NCBI GenBank assembly: GCA_017941355.1
Contig: JAGAWN010000244.1
Location: 1 to 36,980, forward strand
Length of the DNA: 36,980 nucleotides
Origin: Ruminiclostridium sp.
GTDB lineage: Bacteria > Bacillota > Clostridia > Oscillospirales > Ruminococcaceae
Direction: 5' to 3'
Shown: in pieces, positions 22,783 to 30,697 of the stretch
Numbering within the stretch: position 1 is the stretch's first letter
Layout of the letters: every line of letters starts with the position of its first letter
Made by a program: the position numbers and the translations under genes
The notes under the pieces: model-generated
Seen by the model: the letters and a program-made list of their open reading frames with translations, nothing else
What the model was told of the DNA's origin: nothing
Database searches by the model: none

Positions 22783-23727
22783 TCAGTCGATGATCCTGCG
22801 TTTGGTGATGTCCTTGTAAAAGCTGAAATTGACTTTTTTCAGCATATCTATGATCGCCGTTTCGATCTCATGCTCAAGCCCTATGCTTTTGATCTTGCGG
22901 TCTATCAGGCTTTCCTGCGGTGTCAGACGGCGGCTGCGTCCAACCCGGTAGGGTTTGTACATCGTTCCCGTTTCCGTGTCATAGACCGCCGCGGATATCT
23001 CGCCGTCGGTATCCAGCATACGGGCAAGCCCCGAGGGCAGCGCGCAGAAAATGTCGGTAAACACGAAGCTTGCGATACAGATAGCCTTTACCACATCGTT
23101 ATGCAGCGCAGTCCTTCTCGTTATATGCAGGCTGATTATGTACTGCTCAAGCGAGGTATAGTAGTACCCGCGCCCGAATGACAGCGTTATCATGGAAGCC
23201 CCCGCAGCCTGCGCCGTGATAGCATCGGAAGCCCCGGACATCATAGTGTTCAGCGGGCAGATATCCACAGGCAGGAACAGATTGTTTCTGCACCATTTCA
23301 CAAGTGTGTCTATGCTGTCACCGAAAAGTCCGGTAAGCCGTATCGCGGATATCCTGCGGATAAAGCTGAATCTGTGAAGATACAGTATTATCGCCTGCGC
23401 ACTGTACTCGTCCGCGTTCACTTCGAGTATCACAGGCTGCTCCTCCGGCAGACGGTCTATAAGATGCACCTGTTCAAGCTGCACACACGCGTACGCAAAC
23501 GGTACCATGCTGCAATACCCGCAGTCAAAGGCGTTCCCGACACGCAGTATGTATTTATCCTCAAAGCTTTCGAGCGCCATTTTCTCGGCAGTCTCGGAGG
23601 TTATTTCGATATAGTCCGCGCCGCAGGCAAAAACTGCCTTTGCGTAGGCTGTAAGCGCTTCCGGCGTTGTGCGGTCGGTGTTGTATTTTACATAAGAAAG
23701 CGTTCTGTCTGTAATGACGGTTTTCAA
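22783..23727 (-). CDS. degenerate HMGL/DRE-TIM metallolyase-like protein
   Basis: A 314-residue protein resembling homocitrate/isopropylmalate-synthase-type TIM barrels. The N-terminal KTVITDRTL lines up with the usual first strand (DTTLRDGEQ), GADYIEI with the second, and CPLNTMM...AITAQAAGASMITLSFG with the region that normally carries the metal-binding His-x-His. The Arg-Asp-Gly-Glu catalytic part and the two His are absent, so it is unlikely to be a working aldol-type synthase. The TTG at 23727 is chosen because AAAAGGGGAT lies 8 nt upstream; the ATG at 23748 has no site. First gene of the minus-strand unit. Confidence 0.55.
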   Translation of the reverse strand: MKTVITDRTLSYVKYNTDRTTPEALTAYAKAVFACGADYIEITSETAEKMALESFEDKYILRVGNAFDCGYCSMVPFAYACVQLEQVHLIDRLPEEQPVILEVNADEYSAQAIILYLHRFSFIRRISAIRLTGLFGDSIDTLVKWCRNNLFLPVDICPLNTMMSGASDAITAQAAGASMITLSFGRGYYYTSLEQYIISLHITRRTALHNDVVKAICIASFVFTDIFCALPSGLARMLDTDGEISAAVYDTETGTMYKPYRVGRSRRLTPQESLIDRKIKSIGLEHEIETAIIDMLKKVNFSFYKDITKRRIID

Positions 23728-23843
23728 AATACCAGATCCCCTTTTCATTGATACCGGGTAATATTGCTCCGGGGCTTACCATGCTGAGTCTTTTAACAGA
23801 TCTCCCATTCCCGGCTGTGTCCCGGCACACTCCGACAGGATAT

Positions 23844-23872
23844 ATTATATCACAGCGAACAGGATATTTCAA
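23844..23872 (-). promoter_or_regulatory. promoter of the 23727-19844 operon
   Basis: On the minus strand TTGAAA (23867-23872), 17-bp spacer, TATAAT (23844-23849). Confidence 0.8.
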
Positions 23873-23893
23873 GTTATTTTGCAAAGAAAAATA

Positions 23894-23922
23894 TTGACAA
23901 AAAGACTGAATTGTGTTATAAT
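23894..23922 (+). promoter_or_regulatory. consensus promoter of the polyamine operon
   Basis: A perfect TTGACA (23894-23899) and TATAAT (23917-23922) at 17 bp. Transcription should begin near 23929, 250 nt before speA. Confidence 0.9.
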
Positions 23923-23928
23923 TCAAAT

Positions 23929-24168
23929 TGACCCGATTGGATATGCCTACGGACGGGCGGGTCGTATGCCGGGAGCAGCGGACAGCTGCATTATTGATTG
24001 AGTTAAAAGCTCAAATTTTATAAGATGATGACTTTATAATCAAACGCGAATCACTTGTGAAACGGTCAATAAGAAGCGGCAGCGTCCGAAAAATACCCGG
24101 GGATAATTGTATTCCGAGGGGATAGACTACTATGAGTGATGCGGTTCGTATCACTCTTTTTGATTTTG
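23929..24168 (+). ncRNA. candidate attenuator/riboswitch leader of speA
   Basis: The leader folds by eye into several helices: GACCCG...CGGGTC (about 23929-23960), GCAGC-GGACA-GCTGC, TTGAG...CTCAA (about 23998-24014), a TTATAAG/CTTTATAA hairpin and a GGGATA-ATTG-TATTCC hairpin flanked by CCC/GGG. It ends in an intrinsic terminator (24134-24168). The segment CGC-GA-ATCACT (24045-24055) can pair with AGTGATGCG (24135-24143), the 5' arm of that terminator, through 9 bp with a 2-nt bulge. The two pairings are mutually exclusive, which is the usual layout of a transcriptional switch. No known class was recognised; the ligand is unknown. Confidence 0.6.
24134..24168 (+). terminator. intrinsic terminator inside the speA leader
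   Basis: GAGTGAT...ATCACTC (24134-24140 with 24150-24156), extended inwards by three pairs (one G-U), followed by TTTTTGATTTT. It ends only 10 nt before the speA ATG at 24179, so it must be bypassed for expression. Confidence 0.85.
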
Positions 24169-24178
24169 GAAGTAAACT

Positions 24179-25627
24179 ATGGATATTGAAAGACAAAAAT
24201 CGGCGCCGGTATATGAGGCGCTTGAAAGATTCAGAAAACAGCGCGTCGTGCCTTTCGACGTTCCCGGTCATAAGCGCGGACGCGGAAACCCCGAGCTTGT
24301 AAAGCTTCTCGGCGAGCAGTGCGTCAGCCTCGATGTGAACTCAATGAAGCCGCTGGACAACCTCTGCCACCCGGTTTCCGTCATATACGACGCGGAACAG
24401 CTGGCGGCAGACGCGTTCGGGGCTGCACACGCGTACTTCATGGTGGGGGGTACAACTTCCGCGGTACAGAGCATGGTGCTTACCACCTGCAAGGCAGGAG
24501 ACAAGATAATCCTGCCGCGCAACGTCCATAAAAGCGTCATAAACGCCCTTGTGCTGTGCGGAGCGATACCGGTCTATGTGAACCCGGACGTTGACACCCA
24601 TATCGGGATCGCTCTCGGCATGGAGACTGCGCAGGTGCAGAAAGCAATGGACGAAAACCCCGACGCGGTGGCGGTGTTTGTGAACAATCCAACATACTAC
24701 GGTATATGCTCGGATCTGCGCTCGATAGTAAAGCTCGCGCATGAGCGGAATATGCTTGTGCTTGTGGACGAAGCCCACGGAACACACCTGTACTTCCATG
24801 AAAACCTGCCTGTCTCGGCAATGGAAGCGGGAGCTGATATGGCAGCGATCTCGATGCACAAATCCGGCGGAAGCCTTACGCAGAGTTCTCTGCTGCTGCT
24901 CGGAAGTACCGTGAACACACGTTATGTCGAGCAGATAATCAATCTTACGCAGACAACCAGCGCGTCATACCTGCTGCTGTCAAGTCTTGACATTTCGCGC
25001 CGCAACCTCGCTCTTCGCGGGCGGGAGTCCTTTGAAAAGGTCACGTCGATGGCGGAATACGCCCGCAGCGAGATAAACTCCATAGGCGGCTACTACGCTT
25101 ACGGCAGAGAGCTTGTAAACGGCGGCAGCATATATGACTTCGATGTCACGAAGCTGTCTGTATATACCCGCGACATGGGGCTTACCGGTATCGAAGTCTA
25201 TGATCTGCTGCGTGATGAATACGACATACAGATAGAATTCGGAGATATCGGCAACATTCTCGCTTACATCTCTATCGGTGACCGCATACAGGACATAGAG
25301 CGCCTTGTGGGAGCGCTGGAGGACATAAAGCGTCTGTATTCCCGCAAAAGCTCGATGCTGCACAACGCCGAGTACATCACACCGATAGTTGCCGCAACAC
25401 CGCAGAAAGCGTTCTACTCCGAAAAGAAGCTCGTCCCGATACGCGAGACGGCGGGAATGGTCTGCGGGGAGTTCGTTATGTGCTATCCTCCGGGGATACC
25501 GATACTCGCCCCCGGCGAGCAGATAACCTCAGAGATCATCAGCTATATCCTCTACGCAAAGGAGAAAGGCTGCTCGATGCAGGGACCGGAGGACCCGGAT
25601 CTTGAAAAGCTGAATGTGCTTATCTGA
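24179..25627 (+). CDS. speA: arginine decarboxylase (PLP fold-type I, Orn/Lys/Arg family)
   Basis: A 482-residue PLP enzyme of the Bacillus SpeA type. It has the N-terminal DVPGHKRGRG, a cofactor region VDEAHGTH (196-203) and the Schiff-base lysine in SMHKSGG (K228), and a C-terminal domain with YPPGIPILAPGE. It is read as an arginine decarboxylase because agmatine deiminase and N-carbamoylputrescine amidase lie downstream; by sequence alone lysine or ornithine decarboxylase cannot be excluded. Its start has GGAAG upstream. It is the first gene of the polyamine operon, behind the candidate switch. Confidence 0.9.
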   Translation: MDIERQKSAPVYEALERFRKQRVVPFDVPGHKRGRGNPELVKLLGEQCVSLDVNSMKPLDNLCHPVSVIYDAEQLAADAFGAAHAYFMVGGTTSAVQSMVLTTCKAGDKIILPRNVHKSVINALVLCGAIPVYVNPDVDTHIGIALGMETAQVQKAMDENPDAVAVFVNNPTYYGICSDLRSIVKLAHERNMLVLVDEAHGTHLYFHENLPVSAMEAGADMAAISMHKSGGSLTQSSLLLLGSTVNTRYVEQIINLTQTTSASYLLLSSLDISRRNLALRGRESFEKVTSMAEYARSEINSIGGYYAYGRELVNGGSIYDFDVTKLSVYTRDMGLTGIEVYDLLRDEYDIQIEFGDIGNILAYISIGDRIQDIERLVGALEDIKRLYSRKSSMLHNAEYITPIVAATPQKAFYSEKKLVPIRETAGMVCGEFVMCYPPGIPILAPGEQITSEIISYILYAKEKGCSMQGPEDPDLEKLNVLI

Positions 25628-25685: not shown

Positions 25686-26552
25686 ATGGATTTTTGGTTT
25701 TCCGAAATGCACACGAATAACGTGAAAATGTCGATTCGTGTGGAAAAACAGCTTTTCAGCGGAACAAGTGACTTCCAGCGCATTGACGTGTTTGAGTCGG
25801 AGGAATTCGGGCGTTTTCTGACTTCCGACGGAAGTGTGATATTCTCCGAGAAGGACGAGTTCACCTACGACGAGATGATAGTGCACGTTCCAATGGCGGT
25901 ACACCCGAATGTGCGCAAGGTGCTTGTCATCGGCGGCGGCGACGGCGGAGTGGCGCGTGAGCTGTCCTACTACGAGGAGATAGAGCATATAGATGTTGTA
26001 GAGCCGGACGAGATGTTCGTCAACGTGTGCAGAGAGTTCTTTCCGGACAACGCGCGCGGTCTCGACGATCCGAGAGTTGTGGTCTCCAACCGTGACGGAC
26101 TGCGTTTCCTGCGCGGTATGCAGGACGAGTATGACCTCATCATAAACGACAGCACGGATCCCCTCGGACATACCGCCGGACTGTTCACAAAGGAGTTCTA
26201 CGGGAGCTGCTACAAGGCGCTCCGTGAGGACGGGATAATGGTGTATCAGCACGGAAGCCCGTTTTTTGACGAGGACGAGGAGACCTGCCGCGCCATGCAC
26301 CGCAAGGCGTACAAGTCGTTCCCCATAAGCCGCGTATATCAGGCGCATATTCCCACCTGTCCGTCCGGTTACTGGCTGTTCGGGTTCGCATCGAAAAAAT
26401 ATCACCCGCTCAAAGACCTTGACGCTAAACGCTGGAACGCCCGCGGGATAAAAACGTGGTATTACACGACTAATCTGCATACAGGCTCGTTCATGCTCCC
26501 AAAATATGTGGAGGATATGCTGGAAGAGGAAGAAGGGGCGGAGAAGAAGTGA
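25686..26552 (+). CDS. speE: spermidine synthase family aminopropyltransferase
   Basis: A 288-residue Rossmann methyltransferase-fold protein close in layout to Bacillus SpeE: N-terminal FWFSEMHTNNVKMSIRV, nucleotide-binding VIGGGDGGVARE (GGGDGG 83-88), DSTDPLG with the catalytic-type Asp155, and IPTCPSGYWLFGFASKKY. The segment that is Gln-x-(Glu/Asp)-x-Pro in many members is QHGSPFF here (188-194), without the acidic residue. No SpeD, the source of decarboxylated SAM, is in the window, although a full carboxyspermidine route is. The physiological reaction is therefore open. AAAGG precedes the ATG. Confidence 0.88.
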   Translation: MDFWFSEMHTNNVKMSIRVEKQLFSGTSDFQRIDVFESEEFGRFLTSDGSVIFSEKDEFTYDEMIVHVPMAVHPNVRKVLVIGGGDGGVARELSYYEEIEHIDVVEPDEMFVNVCREFFPDNARGLDDPRVVVSNRDGLRFLRGMQDEYDLIINDSTDPLGHTAGLFTKEFYGSCYKALREDGIMVYQHGSPFFDEDEETCRAMHRKAYKSFPISRVYQAHIPTCPSGYWLFGFASKKYHPLKDLDAKRWNARGIKTWYYTTNLHTGSFMLPKYVEDMLEEEEGAEKK

Positions 26553-27187
26553 TGAACGTTAAATTCGGCACACCTGCACCGATACCGTACAGGCTTCCGG
26601 AATTCGGCGGTCTTAGGATCTTTTTGAGGTCGCTCGGAAGTATCACTGCCGACACCGATGAGGAGAGAATGAAGGATATCATAAGGAACGATGCCCTTTT
26701 GATGCTTTCGCAGCACCTCACGGAGCACAGCGAAAAGACTGGATATGATGACTTCCCGTCTCTCTGCGAAGAACTGGGAGACCGGATATCCGGTGAGCTT
26801 ACCGCAAAGCACGGATTCAACTGCGCCGTGAGTATAGACAGCATTACTCCCGATGAAGATTCGCAGAGGAAGATAGACGCTTTAAGTATGACAGATTTTT
26901 CCGCTATCGGCGGTTCAATATGTGTAGATGTGAGTTACAAGCCTGACTGCGTTCCTCCTTGGGGTACCGGAATGGGCAACATGATGCTTACGGGATTTCC
27001 GGGAGCGCTCGGAAAACCGGATACCGGCAGCAGTGAACCGGAACTTATGCCGCAGGTCACACGCCCGGACATTGTTTCTTCCGGTACGCCTGCACCGCAT
27101 TATCAGCCGAAATTCTGTCCCGAGTGCGGGAACAAACTGCCGGAGTTCAGAGTGAACTTCTGCCCGGAATGCGGTAACAAGTTATAA
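26552..27187 (+). CDS. SPFH-like protein with two C-terminal zinc ribbons
   Basis: A 211-residue protein. Residues about 15-115 resemble the SPFH (band-7-like) region of bacterial virion-core-type proteins: FLRSLGSITADTDEERMKDIIR, then LTAKHGFNCAVSIDSITPDED. There is a Pro/Gly-rich linker, then two zinc half-knuckles CPECGNKLPEF and CPECGNKL that together can form one site. The usual family is about 300 or more residues, so this is a short form lacking part of the first SPFH strands. The ATG overlaps the speE stop (TGATG). Its function in a polyamine operon is unknown. Confidence 0.7.
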   Translation: MNVKFGTPAPIPYRLPEFGGLRIFLRSLGSITADTDEERMKDIIRNDALLMLSQHLTEHSEKTGYDDFPSLCEELGDRISGELTAKHGFNCAVSIDSITPDEDSQRKIDALSMTDFSAIGGSICVDVSYKPDCVPPWGTGMGNMMLTGFPGALGKPDTGSSEPELMPQVTRPDIVSSGTPAPHYQPKFCPECGNKLPEFRVNFCPECGNKL

Positions 27188-27220: not shown

Positions 27221-28474
27221 ATGAAACTTATGGTAATAGGCTGCGGCGGCGTGGCGACCGTCGCAATACACAAGTGCTGCGAGAACCCTATTTTTACGGA
27301 AATACTCATTGCAAGCCGCACAAAGAGCAAGTGCGATGCCCTCGCGGACAAGCTGAGAGACAAGACAAAGGCAGTGCTGACGACGGCGACCGTTGACGCG
27401 GACAGTTTCGATTCCCTCTGTGCGCTCATGAAGGAGTTCAAGCCCCATACCGTACTGAATGTGGCGCTGCCCTATCAGGATCTTACGATCATGGACGCGT
27501 GCCTCGAATGCGGCGCGAACTACGTCGATACCGCAAACTACGAAGCCGAGGACACCGACGACCCTGAGTGGCGCGCGATATATGAGAAGCGCTGCAAGGA
27601 AAAGGGATTCACCGCTTACTTCGACTATTCGTGGCAGTGGGCATATCAGGACAAGTTCAAAGCCGCGGGACTCACCGCGCTGCTCGGAACCGGCTTTGAC
27701 CCCGGCGTTACCGGCGTTTACACCGCCTACGCACTCAAACACTACTTCGATGAGATCCACTATATCGACATTCTCGACTGCAACGGCGGCGACCACGGCT
27801 ACCCGTTCGCAACCAACTTCAACCCCGAGATAAATCTGCGTGAGGTCTCCGCCAACGGCTCCTACTGGGAGGACGGTCACTGGGTGGAAACAAAGCCCAT
27901 GGAGATAAAGCGCGAATATAACTTCGACGGTGTGGGAATGAAGGATATGTACCTGCTGCACCACGAGGAGATAGAATCGCTCGCAAAGAATATCCCCAAT
28001 GTCAAGCGCATACGCTTCTTCATGACCTTCGGACAGTCCTACCTGACACACATGAACTGCCTTCAGAACGTCGGTATGCTCGGTACCACCCCCGTTATGT
28101 TCGAGGGACGCGAGATAGTTCCGATCAAGTTCCTGAAAGCACTGCTGCCCGACCCGGCTTCTCTCGGTCCCCGCACTGTCGGCAAGACCAATATAGGCTG
28201 CATCTACCGCGGTATCAAGGACGGCAAGGAGCGCAATATCTATATCTACAACGTCTGCGATCATCAGGAATGCTACAAGGAGACAGGCGCGCAGGCTGTG
28301 TCCTACACCACCGGAGTTCCCGCTATGATCGGTACGGCTATGGTAGCAAGCGGTACATGGAGCGGTGCGGGCGTGTTCAATGTCGAGGAGTTCGACCCCG
28401 ACCCGTATATGGACGCGCTGAACAAGTACGGTCTGCCGTGGCAGGTGGACGAGAACCCCGTACCGGTGGACTGA
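27221..28474 (+). CDS. carboxy(nor)spermidine dehydrogenase (CASDH/CANSDH)
   Basis: A 417-residue NAD(P)H-dependent enzyme of the saccharopine-dehydrogenase family that joins putrescine (or diaminopropane) to aspartate semialdehyde to give carboxyspermidine (or carboxynorspermidine). It has a Rossmann start MKLMVIGCGGVATVAIHKC, VLNVALPYQDLTIMDACLE, the substrate domain LLGTGFDPGVTGVYTAYA, and a late YTTGVPAMIGT. Length and motifs agree with the family. It has a strong site (GGAGG) and lies one base before nspC, its pathway partner. Confidence 0.95.
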   Translation: MKLMVIGCGGVATVAIHKCCENPIFTEILIASRTKSKCDALADKLRDKTKAVLTTATVDADSFDSLCALMKEFKPHTVLNVALPYQDLTIMDACLECGANYVDTANYEAEDTDDPEWRAIYEKRCKEKGFTAYFDYSWQWAYQDKFKAAGLTALLGTGFDPGVTGVYTAYALKHYFDEIHYIDILDCNGGDHGYPFATNFNPEINLREVSANGSYWEDGHWVETKPMEIKREYNFDGVGMKDMYLLHHEEIESLAKNIPNVKRIRFFMTFGQSYLTHMNCLQNVGMLGTTPVMFEGREIVPIKFLKALLPDPASLGPRTVGKTNIGCIYRGIKDGKERNIYIYNVCDHQECYKETGAQAVSYTTGVPAMIGTAMVASGTWSGAGVFNVEEFDPDPYMDALNKYGLPWQVDENPVPVD

Positions 28475-28475
28475 G

Positions 28476-29618
28476 ATGATGAACCAAAGACTGCTGCCGA
28501 GAACAGAGCTGGGCGAGATGATGACACCCGCCTATGTGCTGGACGAGAGCGCACTGCGCCGCAATCTGAAGATACTCCTTGATGTTCAGCAGCGCTCCGG
28601 CTGTAAGATATTGCTTGCGCAGAAAGCGTTTTCTATGTTCGCGGTGTATCCGATGATCTCGGAATACCTCGCGGGAACCACCGCAAGCGGGCTGTATGAA
28701 GCAAGGCTCGGACATGAAGAGTTCGGCGCAGGGGACGTTCACGTTTTCAGCCCCGCGTACAAGGAAAACGAGATATGTGACATAGCAAAGTATGCCGACC
28801 ATATCGTGTTCAATTCATTTGCGCAGCTGCGGAAGCTGCGCGGGTACTGCAAAGGCAAAAGTCTCGGCATACGCATAAACCCGGAGTGTTCGACACAGGA
28901 TGAGCCTATATATGACCCCTGCGCGCCGGACTCACGGCTCGGCGTTACGCTTGCGAACTTCGATGAAGCGGAGTTCGAGGGAGTTGACGGCATACACTTC
29001 CATACCCTCTGCGAACAGGGCTTTGAGCCGCTTGCAAAAACCGTGGAAGCTGTGGAGCAGAAGTTCGGCAAGTATCTGCACAAATGCAAATGGGTGAATT
29101 TCGGCGGCGGGCATCATATCACGAAGACCGGTTACGACATCGAGGGGCTTTTATCGCTGATAAAGCGGTTCTCCGAGAAGTACGGGGTACAGGTATATCT
29201 GGAACCCGGAGAAGCCGTGGTGCTGAACGCGGGGTGGCTCGTTGCCGAAGTCATGGAGATCGTGCATAACGGAATTGAGATAGCTATACTCGATACCTCC
29301 GCAGCGTGCCACATGCCGGACGTGCTGGAGATGCCGTACCGCCCGCCGCTTTTTAACAGCGGACATCCCGGCGAAAAAAGATACACATACCGCCTGTCCT
29401 CACGGACCTGCCTTGCGGGCGACATCATCGGCGATTACAGCTTTGATGAACCGCTCAAAGAGGGCGACAGGCTTTGCTTCGAGGACATGGCGCTATATAC
29501 AATGGTCAAGAACAACACATTCAACGGTATGCCGCTGCCCGACATCGGGATACTCCGCAGCTCTTATGAGCTTGTGAAGCGTTTCGGGTATGAGGATTTC
29601 AAGGGGAGACTGTCATGA
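28476..29618 (+). CDS. nspC: carboxy(nor)spermidine decarboxylase
   Basis: A 380-residue PLP enzyme of fold type III (alanine-racemase-like). It has the Schiff-base lysine in ILLAQKAFSMF (K50), the HTLCEQGF segment, WVNFGGGHHITKTGYD, LEPGEAVVL and the C-terminal CLAGDIIGDYSF with its Cys-Asp pair. It decarboxylates carboxyspermidine to spermidine. It starts one base after the dehydrogenase stop, and its stop overlaps the aguA start (ATGA), so the three genes are coupled. Confidence 0.96.
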   Translation: MMNQRLLPRTELGEMMTPAYVLDESALRRNLKILLDVQQRSGCKILLAQKAFSMFAVYPMISEYLAGTTASGLYEARLGHEEFGAGDVHVFSPAYKENEICDIAKYADHIVFNSFAQLRKLRGYCKGKSLGIRINPECSTQDEPIYDPCAPDSRLGVTLANFDEAEFEGVDGIHFHTLCEQGFEPLAKTVEAVEQKFGKYLHKCKWVNFGGGHHITKTGYDIEGLLSLIKRFSEKYGVQVYLEPGEAVVLNAGWLVAEVMEIVHNGIEIAILDTSAACHMPDVLEMPYRPPLFNSGHPGEKRYTYRLSSRTCLAGDIIGDYSFDEPLKEGDRLCFEDMALYTMVKNNTFNGMPLPDIGILRSSYELVKRFGYEDFKGRLS

Positions 29619-30697
29619 GCTTTTATATGCCCGGCGAGTTTGAACGCCAGCAAGCCGCGATACTGATATTCCCCGAACGCCCCGGCTCATGGGGTTACGG
29701 CGCGGTCCCGGCACAGCGGGCGTTCGCTCAGATAATAAATACCGTCGCAAAGCATGAGACTGTGTATGTTATAGTCAGCGAAAACAGCCGTGCCGCTGCG
29801 GAAAAGCTGCTTGACAGGTCGGAGAATATACGGCTGCTCGAAATCCCCACGAACGACGCGTGGGCGAGAGATACCGCGCCGACATTCGTGAAAGACACCG
29901 TGACCGGCGAGGTGCGCGGTATAAGCTGGCGCTTCAACGCGTGGGGCGGGGATTACGACGGTCTGTACGCGCATTGGGAGCTTGACGACGCACTTGCTGA
30001 GGAGTTCTGCAAACAGACGGGGTTCGGCTGCATAAGCGCGGGGGACTTCGTGCTTGAGGGCGGCTCGATACATTCCGACGGCGAGGGGACGCTGCTCACC
30101 ACGGAAAGCTGCCTGCTCAGCGGCGGGCGTAATCCCGCAATGTCAAAGACTGAGATCGGGCGGACGCTGTGCGGATATCTCGGCGGTGAAAAGATGATAT
30201 GGCTGCCCCGCGGCATTTACAACGACGAAACGAACGAGCACGTTGACAACGTGTGCGCGTTCATACGTCCCGGCGAAGTCGTGCTTGCGTGGACTGACGA
30301 CACGAATGATCCGCAGTATGAACTGTCGGCGGCGTGTCTGCAAACGCTTGAAAGCTGCACCGACGCGCGGGGCAGAAAGATAACCGTCCACAAGCTTCCG
30401 ATACCGGACATTCCCGTGCGCGTTACGGAGCACGATCTTGCGGGGTTCATCTTTGAAGAGGGCGAGGACGTCCGGGAAGCCGGAGAACGGCTTGCCGCCT
30501 CATACGTCAATTTCTTCTTCGCGAACGATATAGTGCTGCTGCCGCAGTTCGGCGGCGAGAACGCGGAGAGCGACAAACGCGCGCTTGACATCATGCGCGG
30601 ACTGCTGCCGGAGCGGGAAATAATACCGATAGACGCGATCGAGATCATCAAGGGCGGCGGGAATATACACTGCATAACGCAGCAGATACCGCTGTGA
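29615..30697 (+). CDS. aguA: agmatine deiminase
   Basis: A 360-residue penta-domain deiminase converting agmatine to N-carbamoylputrescine and ammonia. It has WARDTAPTFV near the start, NAWGG(D), VLEGGSIHSDGEGT and the C-terminal GGGNIHCITQQIPL with the nucleophile Cys353. The full length is present. It overlaps nspC by four bases. Its last ten codons or so are repeated 1,035 bp downstream (31700-31732). Confidence 0.97.
   Translation: MSFYMPGEFERQQAAILIFPERPGSWGYGAVPAQRAFAQIINTVAKHETVYVIVSENSRAAAEKLLDRSENIRLLEIPTNDAWARDTAPTFVKDTVTGEVRGISWRFNAWGGDYDGLYAHWELDDALAEEFCKQTGFGCISAGDFVLEGGSIHSDGEGTLLTTESCLLSGGRNPAMSKTEIGRTLCGYLGGEKMIWLPRGIYNDETNEHVDNVCAFIRPGEVVLAWTDDTNDPQYELSAACLQTLESCTDARGRKITVHKLPIPDIPVRVTEHDLAGFIFEEGEDVREAGERLAASYVNFFFANDIVLLPQFGGENAESDKRALDIMRGLLPEREIIPIDAIEIIKGGGNIHCITQQIPL
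30665..30691 (+). repeat. 27-bp direct repeat, first copy (3' end of aguA)
   Basis: Codons 351-359 of aguA (IHCITQQIP), including catalytic Cys353. Identical to 31700-31726. Confidence 0.95.

Follow-up and report, generated by a model that had tools for sequence, protein, structure and literature searches.

A divergent full-length member of the RF02440 RNA family before a polyamine operon of Ruminiclostridium sp., most likely a polyamine-sensing transcriptional OFF switch

We analyzed the leader of a polyamine operon in a 36,980-nt stretch of Ruminiclostridium sp. DNA (GCA_017941355.1, contig JAGAWN010000244.1; the whole stretch is called the window below). Comparison with its homologues shows that the leader is a divergent but full-length representative of an RNA family that Rfam records by its 5' part (RF02440; SpF59_sRNA / ldcC RNA), the conserved RNA as a whole being larger than RF02440. 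We consider it most likely that this divergent RF02440-family leader acts as a polyamine-sensing transcriptional OFF switch. That it turns polyamine genes off in cis is very probable, and that it is a spermidine riboswitch is probable; this ligand is suggested by the gene contexts of the family together with general knowledge of the pathways.

Results

The speA leader and its operon

The operon reads speA, speE, a gene for a zinc-ribbon protein, CASDH, nspC and aguA (Table 1). CASDH matched NF043000 with an E-value of 4.3e-116 but with 388 bits, under the cut-off of 800; the zinc-ribbon protein (26549-27187) had no NCBIfam match at 1e-5, and no family with a function was found for it among Pfam and NCBIfam. 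The leader (about 250 nt) lies within 23894-24178, between the promoter and speA. A consensus promoter, a multi-helix leader and a strong terminator just before speA had been proposed in a preliminary description of this DNA, and all three were borne out: TTGACA-17-TATAAT scores 12/12, the leader exceeds shuffled versions of itself in folding stability (z -3.1; 1 of 200 shuffles equally stable) and contains conserved helices, and the terminator has a stem of 10 bp (24134-24156) followed by TTTTTGATTTT at 24157-24167, ending about 10 nt 5' of the speA ATG (24179). A GAGGGG that had been placed at 24112-24118 is actually at 24116-24121; its distance from the ATG is too great for a ribosome site, for which GGAAG is the better candidate, and because GGAAG lies outside the terminator hairpin, transcriptional rather than translational control would be favoured. 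Next to the speA promoter and pointing away from it, there is a near-consensus promoter on the reverse strand (11/12, 23844-23872), which probably serves the gene at 22783-23748 of the same strand; the 321-aa protein of this gene, divergent from speA, had no Pfam match at E 1e-5.

Table 1. Features of the speA leader and operon (window positions; A2 and A4 are alignments of the RNA, R1 is a model of its core)
Feature	Position	Strand	Evidence
Sigma-70-type promoter, TTGACA-17-TATAAT, TG preceding -10	23894..23922	+	12/12 consensus positions
Conserved RNA core	23926..24084	+	model R1, 119.9 bits (window leader among the 40 training rows of R1)
Part matching RF02440 (SpF59_sRNA / ldcC RNA)	23929..23972	+	29.8 bits, gathering 37.2, E 0.0019
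Helix P2, GACC 23930-23933 / GGUC 23960-23963	23930..23963	+	A2 alignment
Hairpin P4, GCC/GGC around CGGAC loop	23945..23958	+	A2; 3 pairs of the window standard
Helix P5 (genus type), UGCCG 23967-23971 / CGGCA 24077-24081	23967..24081	+	standard pairs; by eye in genus leaders
Hairpin P6, GCAGC/GCUGC	23975..23989	+	compensatory changes
Long-range helix P7, UUAUUGAU 23991-23998 / GUCAAUAA 24065-24072	23991..24072	+	A2, minimum-energy fold
Hairpin P8	23999..24013	+	A2: 99.6% of cells paired, both-side changes at 4 pairs
Switch helix P11 (predicted), UUUUAUAAG 24016-24024 / CUUGUGAAA 24054-24062	24016..24062	+	A2, A4, minimum-energy fold
Predicted antiterminator strand (CGC + AUCACUU)	24045..24056	+	pairs with 24134-24143; own-vs-permuted test
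Conserved AGACU	24124..24128	+	by eye in genus leaders; AUAGACUC in family-type leaders
Intrinsic terminator; 5' arm doubles as predicted antiterminator partner	24134..24167	+	sequence
GGAAG, probable ribosome binding site, outside terminator hairpin	24168..24172	+	sequence; position
speA-type decarboxylase (Orn/Lys/Arg decarboxylase family)	24179..25627	+	PF01276 1.1e-67
speE, polyamine aminopropyltransferase	25686..26552	+	NF002010, TIGR00417 above cut-off
212-aa protein, C-terminal zinc ribbon, between speE and CASDH	26549..27187	+	PF13248
Carboxy(nor)spermidine synthase-like dehydrogenase (CASDH)	27221..28474	+	NF043000, PF16653, PF03435
Carboxy(nor)spermidine decarboxylase, nspC type	28476..29618	+	TIGR01047 above cut-off
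Agmatine deiminase aguA	29615..30697	+	TIGR03380 above cut-off

A larger RNA around RF02440

The match to RF02440 (44 nt at the 5' end of the leader) spans the whole model of 54 positions and carries the GACC...GGGUC helix, the UACGGAC loop and the AUGCCG motif. The window leader stays under the gathering cut-off (29.8 vs 37.2 bits), whereas homologues from the genus and family exceed it (e.g., the same-genus relative L005 with 50.9 bits), which marks the window leader as a divergent RF02440 homologue. Homology by descent is supported by full-length relatives from the genus and family that can be aligned with it and by a model of a second architecture (R2, see below), which was built without the window leader and matches the window at 23945-24081 (21.1 bits, E 0.0039). 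The leader is therefore not wholly undescribed, as had been thought, because its 5' end falls in RF02440 and L005 scores above the cut-off; the related statement that it belongs to no known class holds at curated Rfam cut-offs and gives way below them (RF02440 at 29.8 bits, E 0.0019). At curated thresholds, a tRNA was the only Rfam match in the whole window, with no gathering-level match to a known riboswitch, T-box or ykkC class, and at E up to 10 nothing beyond RF02440 was matched in 23750-24300. A phage origin of the leader was rejected after no match appeared in 50,697 phage records at E 1e-5.

In the family loci that were fetched, conservation extends about 100-150 nt past the RF02440 part, giving a core that is mostly 150-200 nt long; the structure drawn on 40 sequences (alignment A2) was turned into a model of 176 positions (R1). 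RF02440 was matched in 59 of 197 family genomes at E<=0.1 (in 47 above the cut-off), and in a sample of 398 genomes of the phylum R1 was found in 21 and RF02440 in 17, all 17 within the 21. Searching named genomes for an 18-base pattern taken from within RF02440 (CATACGGACAGSCSGGTC) yielded at least 118 stretches, 80 of which are listed as named loci; among the matches listed, 78 of these 80 loci match R1 (75 with the whole model, 3 ended by the locus edge), and the two that do not are titled Brevibacterium and Actinomycetes. The titles of matching records include Paenibacillus, Bacillus, Neobacillus, Blautia, Faecalibacterium, Acidaminococcus, Phascolarctobacterium and one Spirochaetes MAG.

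Within the genus, the leader was recovered by BLASTN from 20 of 71 genomes including its own, speA is present in 61 of the 71, and R1 matched in 28 (own genome included; the search filters may lose weak matches). With the filters off, 9 of 20 upstream regions matched R1 at E<0.1 (6 had matched beforehand), and 11 of the 14 previously unmatched regions gave no R1 match at this threshold.

Conserved structure

In A2 (n=40), 92.5% of cells pair compared with 86.7% in shuffles, and both-side changes occur at 18 pairs compared with 13.7 (as many in 1 of 500 shuffles). Because the structure had been drawn from the rows of A2, the count was repeated on sequences outside it, using a MAFFT alignment (A4) of 71 sequences, 70 of them not in A2. 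In this alignment 92.7% of cells pair (87.8% in shuffles, 0/500), and both-side changes, the covariation to which the preliminary description had looked in homologous leaders, were found at 22 pairs (12.8 in shuffles, sd 1.8, 0/500) with a covariation score of 0.185 (0.104, 0/500), figures to which, as in our permutation tests, kinship among the rows may still contribute; when partners are slid by one column, pairing drops below 47%. The 70 rows come from 78 named elements (L072, L074, L106, L112, L114, L138, L146 and L151 were left out because of a cut at the locus end, identity to an A2 row or our own choice), and 14 of the 70 are at least 90% identical to A2 rows, 2 of them (L095, L134) at least 95% (identity x coverage). 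Since the 18-base pattern by which the rows were found covers the 3' strands of P2 and P4, no variation can appear in that stretch; these two helices supply 2 of the 22 both-side pairs. We take the comparison to indicate an aptamer-like, conserved structured domain with covariation.

The pair adjoining P2 (A2 columns 4/65) is UA in 21 rows, GC in 7, CG in 6, UG in 4 and unpaired in 2 (n=40), and P2 itself does not form when the window leader is folded to minimum energy without constraints. At the middle pair of P4, 30 A2 rows have G-C and 8 have C-G (n=40); the window row is misaligned at P4 by a shift of two columns in this alignment. P5 varies little, so that support for it is weak; a hand-derived version for family-type leaders (ACUGC/GUAGU) was dropped because several sequences break it. 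P7 and P11 are both part of the minimum-energy fold of the window and nearly invariant in A2 (97.8% of cells paired and both-side changes in no pair for P7; 100% paired and one-sided changes only for P11), so they rest on pairing plus few changes. In alignment A4, P11 is paired in 96.7% of cells with both-side changes at two pairs, and a weak covariation check of its variants, with related rows, gave 6/11 vs 11/93 (Fisher p 0.002). In the window, P11 is extended by UGAU (24026-24029) pairing with AUCA (24050-24053). For helix P10 the alignment is poor (A2: 51.7% of cells paired; MAFFT alignment: 74.2%, n=71). A pseudoknot of the CGGAC loop with GUCCG or GCCG is possible; the relevant columns hardly vary.

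In family-type leaders, an outer helix (GCAA.../...UUGC) is supported by an own-vs-permuted comparison of its strands, with -7.37 kcal/mol for own vs -5.00 kcal/mol for permuted partners (0/20,000; 102 of 145 elements used, 64 leaders after redundancy). By eye, the 5' outer strand of these leaders is missing from the window's genus; in the antiterminator fold of the window, GACU (24125-24128) of the conserved AGACU pairs with GGUC (24064-24067). The second architecture, to which several of the 20 upstream regions of the genus belong, was seen in the same genus (L215, L217, L224-L229), mostly before speD (before another gene in L224 and L225). By eye, the interior of its P7 differs in sequence, its outer-helix strand GCAAGAAAUA lies between GACC and P4, which would create a pseudoknot, and L226 has a strand in its leader, CGCUUUGAG, that matches its terminator arm, CUCAAAGC. 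R2, built from 7 sequences of this architecture, was found in 43 of 194 family genomes; RF02440 had earlier picked up 40 of these 43.

Terminator and antiterminator

The preliminary description had reported a 9-bp pairing (2-nt bulge) of an upstream segment with the 5' arm of the terminator as mutually exclusive with the terminator, and this pairing is exact (24045-24047 and 24050-24055 with 24135-24143). It shares bases with P11, with the extension of P11 and with the terminator 5' arm and thus excludes them, and it would also cross P7; the P11 3' strand (CUUGUGAAA) and its neighbours have a partner either in the core or in the terminator 5' arm. Taken alone, the complementarity in the window does not exceed chance (a partner as good exists for 65 of 400 shuffled arms), so the significance of the antiterminator comes from comparison across leaders and not from the window sequence alone.

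In this comparison, the antiterminator duplex with the leader's own terminator averages -13.73 kcal/mol vs -11.38 kcal/mol (sd 0.25) with permuted terminators (0/20,000; 83 non-redundant leaders), and without window-type leaders the values are -13.82 vs -11.81 (n=74, 0/20,000). Of the 145 elements, 27 were dropped since they had no P11 string or no hairpin, and 108 of the other 118 were used, from which the 83 were obtained. The own terminator rarely ranks first among the partners (median rank 22 of 83; in the top tenth for 17 of 83), and its duplex lies below z -2 relative to shuffled arms in 64 of 83 leaders. A terminator-like hairpin between core and gene is present in 97 of 136 leaders vs 3.2% in shuffles (18/18 before potA, 45/55 before speA, 31/46 before speD and 3/17 before CASDH); by the rule used, there is no terminator in 39 of 136, including 14 of the 17 before CASDH. 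Mutually exclusive folds of the expression platform are thus supported by the comparison of predicted pairings across leaders.

For a window transcript ending at 24143, the minimum is -59.4 kcal/mol with P7, P11 and its extension and without P2, vs -56.8 kcal/mol with the antiterminator forced; this gap is small, so that a ligand could decide between the folds. The whole leader favours the terminator fold over the antiterminator (-71.9 kcal/mol unconstrained, -70.3 with the conserved core and terminator, -58.2 with the antiterminator). As the core fold leaves the terminator free, binding of a ligand to the core should mean OFF. In the mechanism that we propose, spermidine (or a near relative) would bind the core and stabilise P11 and P7, which would hold the antiterminator strand and let the terminator form, shutting off speA-speE-CASDH-nspC-aguA; with the ligand absent, the strand would capture the terminator 5' arm and transcription would go on.

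Genes downstream of the element

None of the 145 elements had been picked by gene context; 136 of them are distinct with at least 250 nt downstream (5 duplicates and 4 with less than 250 nt were set aside). The first downstream gene was called by tblastn with six polyamine proteins (E 1e-8), and a polyamine gene was found in 136 of 136 cases: speA in 55, speD in 46, potA in 18 and CASDH in 17, with 59-496 nt (median 176, n=136) from the core end to the inferred start codon. The one speD representative tested is above the cut-off of TIGR03331 and the one potA representative above those of NF043075 and TIGR01187; the CASDH representative is under the NF043000 cut-off, and the speA representative was identified by Pfam. 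The remaining potA calls are by similarity alone (53% identity in L140), and PotB/C/D-like genes were seen by eye after potA in L107 and L088. In named records of Paenibacillus, Bacillus and Neobacillus the element stands before CASDH, not speA (CASDH-led named loci: L132, L078, L086, L091, L097, L119, L123, L145, L147, L149), with the exception of L129, Bacillus testis.

Both the SpeD/SpeE route and the CASDH/nspC route lead to spermidine, which Pot systems also import. As it fits all four contexts, it is the ligand for which they argue. The preliminary description had proposed a polyamine, agmatine, arginine or a related compound as the ligand; a polyamine end product, in the simplest case spermidine, fits speA, speD, potA and CASDH, while arginine and agmatine were rejected as a misfit with the speD, CASDH and potABCD contexts. 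SAM, among the compounds it listed for assay, was rejected as a misfit with the CASDH and pot contexts, and nothing in the gene contexts points to guanidine.

Discussion

What had been put forward as an undescribed riboswitch or attenuator of a polyamine operon is, in its regulatory part, upheld by a conserved cis RNA, by covariation and by pairing with the leader's own terminator; the label 'undescribed' gives way to RF02440. Weighing against the switch are the leaders that lack a terminator, the modest rank of the own terminator as a partner, the chance-level pairing and terminator-favouring fold of the window leader, and the genus genomes that have speA but give no R1 match. The wider reading, to which we incline somewhat, is that the RF02440/ldcC 'sRNA' represents one fragment of an independent and widespread class of spermidine riboswitches. 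In Bacillota this class would be a main feedback regulator both of PotABCD import and of polyamine synthesis by either route (SpeD/SpeE, CASDH/nspC). Across at least three architectures, the conserved 3' strand AUAGACU would be partnered 5' of the core, inside P2 (as a pseudoknot) or, as may be so in the window's genus, directly 3' of P7.

It is rather unlikely, albeit the strongest competitor, that the same switch responds to another ligand, such as putrescine, agmatine, SAM or decarboxylated SAM, methylthioadenosine or some other small molecule. The products of speA and speD are agmatine and decarboxylated SAM, respectively, which would suit such a ligand, and pneumococcal PotABCD import is, in the text of two studies, not confined to spermidine (PMC7990898, PMC7531197). 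However, none of these ligands fits all four contexts. As the pathways are generally understood, neither SAM nor agmatine takes part in CASDH-led operons, and an OFF switch that responded to putrescine would turn off the very enzyme that consumes it.

Control by a bound protein (attenuation by an RNA-binding regulator instead of a direct riboswitch) seems improbable to us. Protein control is common among terminator/antiterminator leaders, but the core is large (mostly 150-200 nt), and CGGAC in the P4 loop and GCCG are invariant in 40 of 40 A2 rows, which would suit an aptamer better than a protein site.

A trans-acting small RNA, as which RF02440 and F59/srn235 are catalogued, is very improbable. 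Rfam types RF02440 as 'Gene; sRNA', whereas the RNA described here is a cis leader, mostly with a terminator, and is about 100-150 nt longer than the 54 positions of RF02440. The Rfam name SpF59 points to F59 of Streptococcus pneumoniae, known here from published tables, in which it appears as an sRNA (PMC3395615, PMC4387999; in the latter under 'Lung', in the table of the section 'sRNAs Control Virulence'). Its tabulated position, between SP0915 and SP0916 (PMC3395615), is likewise upstream of an arginine decarboxylase, as SP_0916 is named in PMC7531197 and PMC7990898; F59/srn235/Spd_sr49 is listed just upstream of SP0916 with 82 nt or, in PMC12323649, 327 nt, and the word riboswitch is absent from the main text of PMC7531197 and PMC7990898. 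Against action in trans, all 136 elements precede polyamine genes and are in line with them, with a median distance of 176 nt to the start, and F59 itself has such a place. Least probable of all is a constitutive attenuator or a chance structure without a switch, which would agree with the chance-level complementarity of the window alone but not with the conservation and covariation seen over many leaders, nor with the matching of these leaders to their own terminators.

A leader in which terminator and antiterminator exclude one another is the general logic also of the ykkC-type, T-box and SAM classes, and the name ldcC motif is reportedly, in all likelihood, owed to Weinberg in 2017. The published spermidine riboswitch is a four-stem variant of SAM-I that acts as an OFF switch on polyamine genes and that has, according to its authors, a narrow distribution (Cell Rep 2023, PMC10853860). 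The window leader would share with it the terminator/antiterminator OFF logic on polyamine genes, yet it is a different RNA: it has no match to a SAM-I-like four-stem aptamer, and SAM families were matched neither in 23750-24300 at E up to 10 nor in the six related loci scanned. In the accessible text of a 2022 riboswitch review, spermidine is mentioned solely for a fungal claim. The titles and abstract openings listed from the open-licence literature yielded no description of this RNA as a riboswitch, and no binding or termination assay of it was found in that literature as far as it was searched.

The analysis provides a candidate RNA that occurs in many genera and for which boundaries, structure, regulon and predicted switch strands are defined. 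On this reading, the pneumococcal 'sRNA' F59 would be recast as the probable leader of an arginine decarboxylase operon.
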